The notes below the pieces were generated by a model that was not told the origin of the DNA, searched no databases, and saw nothing but the letters and a program-made list of their open reading frames with translations. Positions 1-47,534 of a DNA stretch of 64,000 bases are shown one piece after another. The stretch spans positions 1-64,000 of IMG/VR virus record IMGVR_UViG_3300021598_001001; one strand, 5' to 3'. Source of the DNA: a virus. Positions within the stretch are counted from its first letter, which is position 1. Each line of letters begins with the position of its first letter. A program made the position numbers and the translations under genes.

Positions 1-440
<440 letters not shown>

Positions 441-33528: not shown

Positions 33529-33559
33529 CCCTGGCTTTTTTGGAAGCCAGGGTTTTTTT
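33529..33559. terminator. Bidirectional intrinsic terminator between gp32 and gp53
   Basis: CCCTGGCTT (33529-33537), 6-nt loop, AAGCCAGGG (33544-33552), a perfect 9-bp stem. Seven T follow on the plus strand (33553-33559) and an A-run lies on the other side (33520-33526), so it can stop transcription both ways. It overlaps the last codon of minus-strand gp53. Confidence 0.9.
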
Positions 33560-35882
33560 ATACTCCAGTAAATTTAGGATTATAAGTTCTCTTTAATTTA
33601 GATGAAACTACGTTTTCAGAATCTTTATTATACTTCATAATTTTCTTTAGATCATCAATAATAGTAGAAATATATGATGGTTTTGGTACAATAATTAAAG
33701 TTTTTTCTTCGTTTAATCTTAATTCATATTCCAAATTCGTTATCGGTTTGGAAATACCACTACCATTTACACTAATTATATTCAATCCATCTAAGAATTG
33801 GAATGGTCTTGTGATTTGTTCTTGCCATGCGGTTCCATTCCATTTCCAAATTTTGTTATTTTGAGTGTAAGTTTCGTCAACTTCTACATTGAGAACCTGT
33901 TCTGGTGATATATCAAAAGTTATTGACGGAGGGTTATCATAATTTTCTCCTGGAGAAGTAATTGTAATTGCTGATATTTTTCCATCAACTACTGAAGCAA
34001 TTCCTGTTGCTCTTGAATAAGTTGGTGCTTGAGCAATCGTGACCGTAGGTGCGATAGTATAACCGAATCCAGCATTAGTAATATTGACAGACAATACAGA
34101 TCCATCAACTACTGTAGCCGTTGCCGTTGCATTTACTGCTGGATATGGAGCACCAATCGTTACCGATGGGGCTGTCGTGTATCCAAATCCAACTTCGGAA
34201 ATAGTAATGGAATTAAGAGATCCATTAACTAAGTTTGCGGTTCCTTTAGCTCTGACTTTTATGGAATATTCAAATATAGAATCTCCAGACCCACCAGATA
34301 CCAATAAGTGTTCTACATCTGAACTTATAAATGCATCGGATGGATTTGGAATTCTATCTCCAACATATAGGAAACTACTGAATGTTAAGGTTGTTAAGTC
34401 CCAGGAATTTAAATTAAATTCATATACTGTGGAGTTTGATAGTCCAGTTGCATACATTTTATTTCCACCATTCAAGAAAGAAAATCCAATAATCTCATTG
34501 TCTCCTGTTGGTGTTTCTATATTATATGAGGCTACGAAAGATTTCGTTGTAACGTTCCATGCCGATGATAATGTATATTCTTCAATGGAATCTGGGGAGT
34601 CCATGTTTAATGAATACATCCTAGAACCATCAGACTTGAATCTAACACCACCAGGAGCTGTCAATGAAGTTTGATTTACATATGTTGCTGTGGATATTGA
34701 CCATGGTGTGGATAAATTATAAGCAGCAACAAAGAAATTACCACTAAGTCCACCAGTAACAAACATTTTAGTTCCATCTGGACTAAATTCTATTCCAGTA
34801 CAATAACCGAATACTGCACTAACATCTAATTCATAAGATAAAGAAAGAGTTGTAATATTCCAAGCTGTAGACAACGTAAATTCTTTAATTAGATTTGATC
34901 CTATAGTGCTTGCAGTATAGACTTTATATCCATCAGATTTTACATACATCCCTTCTATTTGATTTCCAACAGAAACTGGAGATTGTTCTCTGTAGATGGT
35001 ATTTGAGATAAAGTTTTGTGGTAAACTGAAGGATACTGATGGGGGAGTTAATCCATATCCACATCCAGAATTAGTAATTTCTACACTTACTACTGTACCT
35101 CCAGTGAATTCTGTTTGACCTAGAGAACTAACTCCTACTGCTTGGATTGAAGTTGGAGCCGTTGAAATGGATACTACAGGTACAGATTTATATCCAAATC
35201 CAGAAGTTAATGATGTAACAGAAGATACCCTAAAACTTTGAATTCCAACAGATGCTGACGCTGAACTTGTGATGGTGGGCTCTGAGAAGGTTAGTTTTGG
35301 TACTTGTTTATAACCAAAACCTTCTTCTATAATATCAATTTCTGTAACTCCACCACTTTCTATAATGCATGAAGTAATTGCAACAACAGGATTTAAATAA
35401 ATCGGAGGAAATGTGATTCCAGGAGGAGTTTCTGTGATTGTTTCATATTCTGGAGCATTATAAAATGTTTCATCTACAATTAAATCTTTTGGAAGTACAA
35501 CTCTATTAAATGAATCTCTTAATTCTATAGTTTCATAGTGATGTATCTCCTGTAATGCATCTTCAGTTCCATATTTACTGATTAAATAGTTATTAAACTC
35601 ATTTACAGTTAATGGCCACTGATCGTAGTAATTGATAATATTATTTGAAACTAAGATAACCCAATCAAGACCTGCATCTCCATATAGTTTTTCTGCTATT
35701 TGATCTGGTCTCTCTCCTTCAACAATAGTATAATATTCAAATCCAGCAAAAACTGATATTAAATCTTCTCTTACTTTTACTCTTCTGAATATATTTTTTG
35801 CTAAAGTTGTTTCATCATTAGATTTCGTATTTGGAAATCTATTTACATATTCAACGTTTGGTAGTTCTGTAAAGTATGCCAT
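33558..35882 (-). CDS. 53: gp53-like baseplate wedge protein with large beta insertion
   Basis: 774 residues; T4 gp53 has 196. The N-terminal ~140 (NRFPNTKSNDETTLAKNIFR, YYTIVEGERPDQIAEKLYG, DWVILVSNNIINYYDQWPL) are gp53-like with a LysM-type segment, and the C-terminal ~110 contain WKWNGTAWQEQITRPFQFLD. Between them lie Gly-rich beta repeats of the form GFGYxxxPxVxI (~180-290 and ~545-660) flanking a propeller-like region (~300-545). That region has at least four repeats of LSxxWxI(S/T)T with GTKMFVTGG-type loops. The insertion probably projects from the baseplate. Last gene of the minus-strand operon. Confidence 0.85.
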   Translation of the reverse strand: MAYFTELPNVEYVNRFPNTKSNDETTLAKNIFRRVKVREDLISVFAGFEYYTIVEGERPDQIAEKLYGDAGLDWVILVSNNIINYYDQWPLTVNEFNNYLISKYGTEDALQEIHHYETIELRDSFNRVVLPKDLIVDETFYNAPEYETITETPPGITFPPIYLNPVVAITSCIIESGGVTEIDIIEEGFGYKQVPKLTFSEPTITSSASASVGIQSFRVSSVTSLTSGFGYKSVPVVSISTAPTSIQAVGVSSLGQTEFTGGTVVSVEITNSGCGYGLTPPSVSFSLPQNFISNTIYREQSPVSVGNQIEGMYVKSDGYKVYTASTIGSNLIKEFTLSTAWNITTLSLSYELDVSAVFGYCTGIEFSPDGTKMFVTGGLSGNFFVAAYNLSTPWSISTATYVNQTSLTAPGGVRFKSDGSRMYSLNMDSPDSIEEYTLSSAWNVTTKSFVASYNIETPTGDNEIIGFSFLNGGNKMYATGLSNSTVYEFNLNSWDLTTLTFSSFLYVGDRIPNPSDAFISSDVEHLLVSGGSGDSIFEYSIKVRAKGTANLVNGSLNSITISEVGFGYTTAPSVTIGAPYPAVNATATATVVDGSVLSVNITNAGFGYTIAPTVTIAQAPTYSRATGIASVVDGKISAITITSPGENYDNPPSITFDISPEQVLNVEVDETYTQNNKIWKWNGTAWQEQITRPFQFLDGLNIISVNGSGISKPITNLEYELRLNEEKTLIIVPKPSYISTIIDDLKKIMKYNKDSENVVSSKLKRTYNPKFTGV

Positions 35883-35883
35883 A

Positions 35884-37368
35884 TTAGTAACCTACTGCGT
35901 CGTTAGCAACTGGAGAAAGATCTGTTCTTTGTGAGTTGACTGTATCTTGATAATCGACATCATAAATTGGTTCAAGTTCTGCGAATTGTAGGGTTATTCT
36001 TGTAGAAACTGGTTGACCTTCATCATATGCAACCCAGAAACCATCTGGGGTATAATCTGTTTGCATAGAAACCAACGCACAAGTCTTAAATCTACTGATT
36101 GCTTTATTTTCTCCAGTTGTTGTTTTAAATTCCAATTTGAATACATTTGGAGTTTTAAGAAAATAAGATGCTCCTCCTGCACCTCTACCAGATCTCTTTT
36201 TTGGTGACATTCCTTGTTTAAAGAATCTGAGTATTCTCCTAATCATCATCGCTTCATCTCTACTTCTTGCTGTTAGTCTATAACTAACACCAAAAGATCT
36301 TAATTGGGGTCCGTTGAATAACAACTCTAAATTATTATTTGGAACAATTCCTGCACCTCTAGCCAATATTGTTTCTATTTCAGTTCCAAATTGAGCCATT
36401 TGAAGAAGTTTTTGAACACCAATGGTTCCCATTAAACCTCTCCCTTCTGCTGTGGCACTTGCTTCGTTAAGGAGTTTACCATAAGCAAGTGTTTGACCTC
36501 CTGCGGATGCTCCAGATCCTGCTCCACCAGCAACACTGCCGCCCATCTTACTACTAATAAAAGCACCCAACCCAGCGCCAACTAAACCTGCTGCTGCATA
36601 TTGTCCTGGATTTTTTATGACATCTGCCATCATTCCAGCACTAATATTATTCATTTGATCTGGACCCCATCCAACATCCTTGGTTTCGGAGATACTAGAA
36701 GGCATAGGAAAAGTTACAGTTCCTATAACTTTTTCTGGTCTAAAATCACTACCTCTCTGTAAACCATTTTGAATAATACTTGAAAAGTCTCCATTTAGAA
36801 GTTGATCTCCAGCTGGAGCAGCATACTCAAATTGACTTATAAAGAGAGTATCCTGTTTCCTGGAATTCATATCAATTGGATACTTCAATCCTTTGAAAAG
36901 TAATTTAGCTTCATTTCCAGCTCCATAGTCTTGATTTGCTATTTCTCTTATAGCTTCACTTGGGTTTATTAGTGCTCCAAATGCTGCTCCTATGTTTCCC
37001 GGACTTGTAGAATTACTCGAAACACTTTGACTTGGAGTTGATGTACTTTGACCCGGAGGTTGTCCTTGATTCTGTTGTTGGGCCCAAGCAGGTAGAACTA
37101 AACCAGCAGAAGTTCCACCTAAAGCCCTAAACGAAGTTCTTACAGAAGTTTGAATATTTTCGTGTATTGTTTGTTGTTCTTGTGAAGATATTGATAAAGA
37201 ATTGACACTAGAAGAATTCCATTTACCATCCGTATAAATCGCTGGTGTCCCAGTGGCAGCATTTTGTTGAATGAGTTGTACTTCACCAGTACGTTTATTG
37301 TACTGTAAATTATAATTTACAGAATTTTTTGTAAAGTATGGTACTGGTGAAATATTTTGATATGTCAC
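35884..37368 (-). CDS. 48: gp48-like tail tube cap protein (GTG start)
   Basis: 494 residues (T4 gp48 has 364). The start codon reads GTG on the minus strand, directly after the stop of the upstream gene. Characteristic segments: KLLFKGLKYPIDMNSRKQDT, FNGPQLRSFGVSYRLTARSR, DEAMMIRRILRFFKQGMSP and FLKTPNVFKLEF. gp48 sits on the baseplate hub and templates the tail tube with gp54. The middle has an Ala/Gly-rich hydrophobic insertion (~255-300, GQYAAAGLVGAGLGAFISSK), unusual for this family. Two bases separate it from gp53. Confidence 0.88.
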   Translation of the reverse strand: MTYQNISPVPYFTKNSVNYNLQYNKRTGEVQLIQQNAATGTPAIYTDGKWNSSSVNSLSISSQEQQTIHENIQTSVRTSFRALGGTSAGLVLPAWAQQQNQGQPPGQSTSTPSQSVSSNSTSPGNIGAAFGALINPSEAIREIANQDYGAGNEAKLLFKGLKYPIDMNSRKQDTLFISQFEYAAPAGDQLLNGDFSSIIQNGLQRGSDFRPEKVIGTVTFPMPSSISETKDVGWGPDQMNNISAGMMADVIKNPGQYAAAGLVGAGLGAFISSKMGGSVAGGAGSGASAGGQTLAYGKLLNEASATAEGRGLMGTIGVQKLLQMAQFGTEIETILARGAGIVPNNNLELLFNGPQLRSFGVSYRLTARSRDEAMMIRRILRFFKQGMSPKKRSGRGAGGASYFLKTPNVFKLEFKTTTGENKAISRFKTCALVSMQTDYTPDGFWVAYDEGQPVSTRITLQFAELEPIYDVDYQDTVNSQRTDLSPVANDAVGY

Positions 37369-45166: not shown

Positions 45167-45379
45167 ATGGAAAACATAGATGCACATATTGCCAAGGATA
45201 AAGCTCTCCTTGACGACCCACTAATTTCTGCACAATCACGCAGACATACAGAAGAAGAATTAGAAGCTCTTGAAGCTTATAAAATGAATCATCCAGAAGA
45301 TAGTCATGACCCAACTCCATTAGAGTTGTTCTGTGATTCTAATCCAAATGCTCTAGAATGTAGAATTTACGATGATTGA
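45167..45379 (+). CDS. Small conserved-type cyanophage protein between gp27 and gp5
   Basis: 70 residues, acidic, with a helix (QSRRHTEEELEALEAYKMNH) and a conserved-looking end DPTPLELFCDSNPNALECRI that includes two Cys. It overlaps gp5 by 8 bp. Consistent position in the hub block suggests an assembly function; none is known. Confidence 0.65.
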   Translation: MENIDAHIAKDKALLDDPLISAQSRRHTEEELEALEAYKMNHPEDSHDPTPLELFCDSNPNALECRIYDD

Positions 45380-47534
45380 AGAATCTTTACTTAAATCTAA
45401 CTTTATCGGAAAAGATGGTTTCGTTTGGTGGATCGGCCAAGTTGCCGATCCGAAAGTTTGGCGTACCGAAAAGTCCAGAGTAGATGAAAGTAAAGATACA
45501 AGTTGGGCATATAGATGTAAAGTACGAATAATAGGGTATCACAGTTTTGATGCAAATATTTTACCCGATGAAGATCTACCTTGGGCTCATATTTTAACCA
45601 GTGCTTCAGAAGGATCTCCAGGACAAGGTAGTTTTGGTAAAACTCATATGATAGTGGGAGGAGAATCTGTTTTAGGATTCTTCTTAGATGGCGAAGAAGG
45701 TCAACAACCAGTTGTTGTATCTTGTTTTTATAGATCAAAAGCAGTAGAAAACGCAAAAGAACCTGGACCTTTTAAACCTTTCACTGGGATGCAAGGTAAT
45801 TTAAAGGCCAGTGCAACAAGAATAAAAGCTCCTGCAACTGGAGTCATAAAAGAAGCCGAAAAAAATACAGTTGAAAGTGGATCAGCAATAAAATTTTCAC
45901 AAAATCCAGAATTTGGAATAGGAGATTCTGGATTAGATTTATCCCCTAATTTTAATCCACTTACGCCAGATACAGGAAATTCATCAGGAAGTTTTAGAAA
46001 AATACCTGGTGCATCTTCTGACGAACTTTTTTACAAGGATGTAGGAAATCTTGCATTTTTAAAGGCTTTTAATGATGCAGGAGAAGTGTCTGGATCTAAC
46101 GGATGTTTGACAAATGTATTAGCTAATATTACTAGTGCTTTACAGGGATTCATTGGATTTGTGAATGGTTTAGAAAAGACTATTTTTGGATTCATAGACC
46201 CAATAAGAAATAAAATTGTAGATATAGGTTCACAAATAAAATCAGTCGCAAGATTGATAGCATCTCTTATGAAATTCATCATAAATGGGATGCGTGACAA
46301 TATAATAAAGTTAACAGGGTGTTTATTTAGAGCTTTTTCGATAACAATACCACTTCCTCAGTGGTTAAGACTATCCGAAGCAGCTAAAAGAATTTTAGAT
46401 ATAATTTTTTGTATCTTTGAAAAATTATTTGGACCAATAGAAAATTTTATTGCTGGATTACTGTCAGGACTAATCGGAAAAACTCCAAATATTCCAAGAT
46501 GTGCTGCAGAAGAACTTACTGCTTCTCTTATTTCCAAACTTATGGAAATGGTCGATGACAGTTTAGCTACAGTTCTTTCTGGTTTGGATTGGTTAGTTGG
46601 TGGAGTAGGTGAAATCACAGGATATTTAAAAACTGCAGCTCAAGAAATTTCTCAACTACTTAGTTTCTTAAACTGTGATGGACTTCTATGCCAAACTCCT
46701 GGAACATGGGATCCATTTAAAGGAGTAAAGTTCCCAGAGACTGATGAGTGGGCAAAAGTAGTTGGTAATATAGATTTACTAGGTGGTTATGGTGGTGAAG
46801 TCAATGATTGGATAGGTTTACTGTCATCGTTTGGATCTGCAGACACTCCATTCAAAGATTGTAGAAACAAAGCATTAAATCCAAAGAATCAAAAAGATCT
46901 TCCACCCATACCACCAGGTACATTATTCTATAAGTGTATTCCACCAGAAGTAATTATAAATGGTGATGGAACAGGTGCAAAAGCAATACCTGTTATAGAA
47001 CCTACATCTGGTTCTATTTTAACAGTAAAAGTTCTAGAAGCTGGTAAAGGATATAGTAGACCACCTTCTATTTCGATTCTTGATAACAGTAATTATGGAT
47101 CTGGTGCTGAAGCAAAATCAACCATCAAAAATGGACAAATAGAATCAATTTACATTGTAAAATCTGGATCTGGATATTGTTTAACTGTTGGTGTTGGTAC
47201 AACCAGTTCTGCTGGAATTTCTACCGTACCTGTTGGAATTATAACCTCTTTAGTAGTAGAATCTCCAGGATTTGGATATACTTCTGGTGATACTATCTTA
47301 GTCGGTAGTTGCGTTTATAGTCCTATTTTAACTACTAATGGTTCAATAATAGGTATAAACTCAGTTTCATATTGTTCTCAACAATTCAAAATTGTTCCAC
47401 CAGTGACCATAAATACAACTACTGGGGTTGGTGCTGAAGTATATCCAGTATTACAATATATTCCACAATATATTGTCAATAATCAACCTACAACTGGTAT
47501 AGGTTCAATCACAGAAGTAGTAGAGTGCGTATGA
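45372..47534 (+). CDS. 5: gp5-like baseplate hub/spike protein without lysozyme domain
   Basis: 720 residues. The N-terminal ~125 form an OB-like domain as in T4 gp5: GFVWWIGQVADPKVWRT, CKVRIIGYHSFDANILPDED, LPWAHILTSASEGSPGQGSF and GFFLDGEEGQQPVVVSCFYR. The middle (~255-440) is helical and hydrophobic (FIGFVNGLEKTIFGFIDPIR and later stretches), unlike T4. The C-terminal ~180 consist of GKGYSRPPSISI-type beta repeats related to those in the gp53-like protein. There is no T4-type lysozyme domain or triple-helix VxGxxxxx repeat. It overlaps the following spike gene by 10 bp. Confidence 0.8.
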   Translation: MIEESLLKSNFIGKDGFVWWIGQVADPKVWRTEKSRVDESKDTSWAYRCKVRIIGYHSFDANILPDEDLPWAHILTSASEGSPGQGSFGKTHMIVGGESVLGFFLDGEEGQQPVVVSCFYRSKAVENAKEPGPFKPFTGMQGNLKASATRIKAPATGVIKEAEKNTVESGSAIKFSQNPEFGIGDSGLDLSPNFNPLTPDTGNSSGSFRKIPGASSDELFYKDVGNLAFLKAFNDAGEVSGSNGCLTNVLANITSALQGFIGFVNGLEKTIFGFIDPIRNKIVDIGSQIKSVARLIASLMKFIINGMRDNIIKLTGCLFRAFSITIPLPQWLRLSEAAKRILDIIFCIFEKLFGPIENFIAGLLSGLIGKTPNIPRCAAEELTASLISKLMEMVDDSLATVLSGLDWLVGGVGEITGYLKTAAQEISQLLSFLNCDGLLCQTPGTWDPFKGVKFPETDEWAKVVGNIDLLGGYGGEVNDWIGLLSSFGSADTPFKDCRNKALNPKNQKDLPPIPPGTLFYKCIPPEVIINGDGTGAKAIPVIEPTSGSILTVKVLEAGKGYSRPPSISILDNSNYGSGAEAKSTIKNGQIESIYIVKSGSGYCLTVGVGTTSSAGISTVPVGIITSLVVESPGFGYTSGDTILVGSCVYSPILTTNGSIIGINSVSYCSQQFKIVPPVTINTTTGVGAEVYPVLQYIPQYIVNNQPTTGIGSITEVVECV

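Follow-up and report, generated by a model that had tools for sequence, protein, structure and literature searches.

A predicted five-bladed beta-propeller carried on repeat arms within the baseplate wedge protein gp53 of a T4-like virus

Background

An account of contractile systems presents the baseplate wedge protein BW4/gp53 as a small protein conserved in all of them (PMC10811340). In phage T4, gp53 comprises 196 amino acids (aa) and has a LysM fold (PDB 5IV5, 5HX2). Here, we analyzed a 64,000-nucleotide stretch of viral DNA, positions 1 to 64,000 of IMG/VR record IMGVR_UViG_3300021598_001001 (hereafter, the window), in which a minus-strand gene at 33558-35882 encodes a gp53 with approximately 520 extra residues between its two conserved cores. 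As shown by repeat counts and structure prediction, this insert holds a five-bladed beta-propeller. What is new is a known BW4/gp53 protein that carries a display-type propeller; tripled in length by a propeller on arms, it would show that display domains can be borne by a core wedge protein as well as by fibres and rim proteins. This arrangement bears on the contact between cyanophage and host at the baseplate.

The gp53 of S-SCSM2R (XQU49932.1), a cultured phage of Synechococcus WH7803, is a single 780-aa coding sequence with the same arms and propeller, and it is 40% identical to the window protein over its full length. Its propeller is only approximately 34% identical to that of the window, and its annotation reads just 'baseplate wedge protein 53'. 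Our literature search, in which few subscription papers were covered, turned up no publication that treats S-SCSM2R or describes a propeller in the baseplate of a cyanophage. In functional terms, the closest precedent, as an analogy and not as a case of membership, is the receptor-binding protein Gp45 of Staphylococcus phage phi11, whose five-bladed propeller, also on a baseplate, is the proposed site for N-acetylglucosamine (GlcNAc) (PMC4901313). Gp45 is a separate trimeric receptor-binding protein of a siphophage rather than an insert in a wedge core protein, and its likeness to the gp53 propeller lies in the five-bladed fold and the location on a baseplate. The cellular surface-layer protein 1L0Q, in turn, combines a YVTN propeller with PKD domains and is not a phage protein with five inserted blades.

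The gp53 gene and the anatomy of its insert

The gene is a single unbroken frame of 774 aa with zero internal stops, and the same open reading frame (ORF) is present at 100% identity in other contigs. The N-terminal part of the product matches Phage_gp53 (PF11246) at residues 4-116 (E=6e-9; 36.2 bits versus a cut-off of 21), while PHROG 232, 'baseplate wedge subunit', matches the protein in two stretches (E=3.5e-57), the second of which corresponds to the C core. The alignment with S-SSM7 gp53 places the C core in the same chain as the N core. The neighbourhood is T4-like, with an adjoining gene for a gp48-like tail tube cap and with genes for a DNA end protector and gp32 nearby, an arrangement shared with other T4-like cyanophages; the N core and the position next to gp48 constitute the likeness to T4. 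Judged from sequence and gene order, the product is a T4-type baseplate wedge protein gp53 (BW4).

The original prediction described a beta-propeller-like insertion of approximately 500 residues in gp53, with GFGYxxxPxVxI-type repeats on both sides, and stated that T4 gp53 has none of this. Our analysis agrees on each of these points. Alignment with S-SSM7 gp53, which is 251 aa long and has no insert, places the extra sequence between about residue 148 and the C core at about residue 665, whereas the solved T4 chain (matched structures 5hx2_F and 9f4a_AL) aligns to residues 4-116 only. The recurrence of the identical ORF in more than one contig, together with the single coding sequence of the isolate S-SCSM2R, ruled out a gene break, a frameshift or an assembly fusion as the origin of the long gene, so the insertion in gp53 stands as one continuous gene. 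In one contig (L146:2847-4396), a propeller-bearing gp53 is split by frame changes, which may mark either a pseudogene or an error of assembly.

The insert consists of three GxGY repeats of approximately 40 aa, the propeller (about residues 290-545) and three further GxGY repeats. The GxGY motifs are located at residues 188, 228 and 273 on the N-terminal side and at residues 565, 605 and 645 on the C-terminal side, the last one reading GENY. The two arms are homologous, since a profile of the C-side arm detects the N-side arm with E=6e-20; in the full-length model, the N-side arm forms three 3-strand units. Neither the GxGY repeats nor the window propeller gave a Pfam match above cut-off, and the comparison of the GxGY repeats with solved structures gave only a weak match, to the tailspike Dpo31/Dpo36 (E=0.0035). 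GxGY repeats are also present in a gp5-like hub/lysozyme protein of the same genome (window 45372-47534), in a 4379-aa frame (record 107578-117978) and in a 478-aa frame (record 148029-148394).

Evidence for a five-bladed propeller

Using a blade hidden Markov model (HMM) built solely from non-gp53 proteins of other phages, we identified five hits at residues 310-541 (141.6 bits, E=4e-44), whereas 200 shuffled versions of this segment scored no higher than 9.4 bits. At least four LSxxWxI(S/T)T repeats had been noted beforehand; four W-x-(I/V/L)-(S/T)T motifs were indeed counted, one in each of blades 1 to 4, but the true unit number is five, as are the inner-strand motifs. The fifth blade lacks a following W-motif half because an N-terminal strand, residues 295-300, supplies its outer part. 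The same organization is found in the relatives, where 141 of the 153 blade clusters from viral and bacterial proteins hold 5, 10, 15 or 20 inner halves, and where the commonest pattern is five inner and four outer halves, as would be expected if an outer strand from the N-terminal end closes the ring. The five inner strands and these multiples of five ruled out both a four-bladed structure and an open solenoid.

AlphaFold2, run on a 46-sequence alignment, gave for the propeller alone a predicted local distance difference test (pLDDT) score of 94.3 and a predicted template modelling (pTM) score of 0.91. The model is a compact propeller with 20 strands ordered as five four-stranded blades, residues 295-300 being the closing strand. 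Neither outcome named in the original prediction as refuting it, a model lacking a closed propeller or a gene break that separates the insertion from gp53, was observed. For the whole protein, the scores were 84.5 and 0.49, respectively; the latter value means that the domains are fixed, but the arrangement between them is not. Foldseek searches of the PDB with the model returned more than 1,000 matches at E<=0.001, and the 50 listed are, judging by their titles, propeller proteins. E-values reached 7e-11, with template modelling (TM) scores of 0.46-0.58 on the query, mostly to seven-bladed propellers; values of about 0.5-0.58 would be expected when most of the superposed structures have seven blades instead of five. 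By sequence profile, the PDB entry that matched best was 1L0Q (E=3e-11), an archaeal surface-layer protein with a YVTN propeller. The features of the gene and its insert are collected in Table 1.

Table 1. Location of the gp53 gene, its domains and the adjoining gene in the window
Feature	Position	Strand	Basis
Insert-bearing gp53 (BW4, baseplate wedge) gene, 774 aa	33558..35882	-	PF11246, PHROG 232
gp53 N core, residues 1-147, LysM-like region of Phage_gp53	35442..35882	-	PF11246, PHROG 232, T4 gp53 chains
N-side arm, three GxGY repeats, residues 164-288	35019..35393	-	Arm profile 6e-20; model
Outer strand of blade 5 ('velcro' closing strand), residues 295-300	34983..35000	-	Model strand order; 5:4 inner:outer ratio in relatives
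Blade 1, residues 309-352	34827..34958	-	Model and blade HMM
Blade 2, residues 360-406	34665..34805	-	Model and blade HMM
Blade 3, residues 410-454	34521..34655	-	Model and blade HMM
Blade 4, residues 464-506	34365..34493	-	Model and blade HMM
Blade 5, three strands, residues 514-541; fourth from residues 295-300	34260..34343	-	Model and blade HMM
C-side arm, three GxGY repeats, residues 546-662	33897..34247	-	Model; arm profile
gp53 C core, residues 665-774; directly follows the N core in S-SSM7 gp53 (251 aa)	33561..33890	-	Alignment
gp48-like baseplate tail tube cap, upstream neighbour	35884..37368	-	PHROG 230 E=1e-59; T4-like order

Distribution and relatives of the propeller

The combination of N core, propeller and C core was found in at least 77 complete IMG/VR gp53 genes; the IMG/VR counts derive from at most 80 loci per scan and are lower bounds, not frequencies. 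The comparison of gp53 length, which the original prediction had proposed for cyanophages as a check, separates proteins of about 775-905 aa with a propeller from insert-free proteins of about 217-263 aa. Among the 844 phage records with a match to the gp53 N core, one, S-SCSM2R, has the propeller inside gp53. The arm-propeller-arm architecture is kept down to 32% identity with the window gp53.

Other modules have been found in the same place. In S-H9-2 (L006:3001-5028) and in L054:3483-4964, a reelin-subrepeat-like module replaces the propeller; in L054, the match to PF21471 (E=2e-5) is just below the cut-off, and PHROG 30655 is common to both proteins. Three gp53s of approximately 900 aa (L115:2616-5297, L126:372-3059 and L140:2047-4755) carry, in addition to the propeller, a domain of approximately 115 aa within the C-side GxGY arm. 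We call it cupredoxin-like from its motif HPFWIK ... YYYxCxxHxxM, a possible copper-ligand pattern; it has no Pfam match. There are signs that the gp53 insertion site takes exchangeable modules.

Outside gp53, homologous propellers may stand alone, come in threes or form part of other genes. Homologous five-blade units are present in gp51 of the Lentibacter podophage ICBM2, three tandem copies of the propeller in gp43 of the Roseobacter phage CRP-13, and another five-blade member of this family, beside a YHYH domain (PF14240, E=3e-21), in an unannotated giant virion protein of S-SKS1 (L179:1635-6437). Further homologous propellers belong to proteins whose C-terminal domains are of the tail-fibre kind (PHROG 9017/7760). 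In Pelagibacteraceae (SAR11), an autotransporter (PF03797, E=5e-35) with a Big_5 domain has a propeller of this family as its passenger (L199:2785-5322 and similar loci); this passenger is a candidate surface adhesin. In several phage contigs (L217, L221, L228, L245, L248 and others), at least two consecutive genes each encode one or more five-blade propellers, with up to 20 blades in one protein. Such consecutive propeller genes suggest repeated duplication of fibre-like genes.

Phylogeny and sequence variation

In the N-core tree, the propeller-bearing gp53s fall into two clades, and a single clade was rejected by the approximately unbiased (AU) test (p=1e-5), which rules out a single gp53 core lineage carrying the propeller. 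In the propeller tree, all gp53 propellers group together and are divided into the same two groups; the C-core tree is too short to show grouping. The simplest reading of these trees is that the propeller would have entered gp53 once and then been transferred once between gp53 lineages, or been lost in others.

We estimated the ratio of nonsynonymous to synonymous polymorphism (pN/pS) from 99 pairs at 70-99% identity; the pairs share sequences, and the values are therefore descriptive. They were 0.18 for the N core, 0.36 for the N arm, 0.27 for the propeller, 0.33 for the C arm and 0.23 for the C core, values that indicate that the insert is maintained under purifying selection. Hypervariability was looked for as a receptor signature, and it was not seen (0.27 in the propeller versus 0.18-0.23 in the cores). 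The loops of the propeller differ in their variability: B-C and D-A are variable (mean entropy 1.9-2.0, with 15 insertion columns), whereas A-B and C-D are conserved (mean entropy 1.4-1.5, with 2 insertion columns). The predicted inner strands carry three near-invariant residues, E310, R414 and D516.

Possible functions of the propeller

We propose, at a probability slightly below one half (about 0.45) and by analogy with the relatives, that the gp53 propeller is a stalk-displayed adhesion domain, present six times per baseplate, that binds host surface glycans as an accessory site. The two ends of the propeller would meet at the closing strand, so that the paired GxGY arms could carry it at their tip, a placement that would leave the gp53 fold undisturbed. 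With six gp53 copies per baseplate, the number in T4, six short-stalked propellers would surround the wedge ring. Their variable face, formed by the B-C and D-A loops, may bind glycans of the cyanobacterial cell surface, and the propeller would work beside the tail fibres as an accessory adhesion site. The main ground for a role in adhesion is that the contexts of the relatives are extracellular or in virions; the location of the variation on the B-C/D-A face also points to it. Exposure of the propeller at the wedge, as originally predicted, is plausible, and the propeller would probably provide the tail with a binding surface.

Three points weigh against this proposal. Closure of the ring is a prediction drawn from the strand order, the pTM and the ratio of inner to outer repeats. 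Most cyanophage records have no gp53 propeller, and it is therefore not generally needed for infection. Moreover, the propeller has diverged at much the same rate as the C core, both in identity and in pN/pS, a mild pace for a receptor-binding domain.

The last of these points would also suit a docking or clamp module internal to the virion, which might hold retracted fibres, the sheath or a neighbouring wedge protein and tune baseplate switching. The original prediction had suggested binding either to sugar or to other virion parts, and we regard the latter alternative as nearly as likely as adhesion: the propeller is under purifying selection and is not hypervariable, E310, R414 and D516 are conserved on the predicted inner strands, and GxGY repeats are common to other virion proteins of the same genome. 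Nevertheless, the same gp53 site holds unrelated modules, reelin-like or cupredoxin-like, or nothing at all, a pattern that fits display at the surface more readily than a contact the virion cannot do without, and the homologous propellers act in very different contexts, including that of an autotransporter passenger.

The conserved charged residues on the inner strands could also belong to an enzyme of glycosidase or lactonase type that breaks down polymers on the surface of the host. The PDB matches include propellers of the phosphogluconolactonase type and, by sequence profile, paraoxonase, and there are weak Pfam matches to the SGL/Lactonase families. These Pfam matches of the window protein are, however, below the curated cut-offs (15 bits versus 26.3 and 13.2 bits versus 21.7), no known family's catalytic set was recognized, and the non-gp53 relatives, inspected by eye, have no equivalents of E310 and R414; we consider an enzyme improbable. 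A neutral insertion persisting without a role of its own, to which the lack of a propeller in most gp53 proteins might point, is the least probable of all, given an arm-propeller-arm arrangement kept down to 32% identity and a pN/pS of 0.27.

Returning to adhesion and surface display, a broader and more doubtful extension is that cyanophage gp53 may be an exchangeable display platform, in which one site between the cores accepts propeller, reelin-like or cupredoxin-like modules, in many cases on GxGY arms, and provides a second, fibre-independent touch on the host or the environment. The cultured isolate S-SCSM2R makes the role of the propeller directly testable.

Other features of the viral record

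The viral record carries psbA at 767-1636, from which a photosynthetic host can be inferred. A second fragment resembling a photosystem reaction-centre gene is located at window positions 3-314; it is possibly psbD, cut by the edge of the record.
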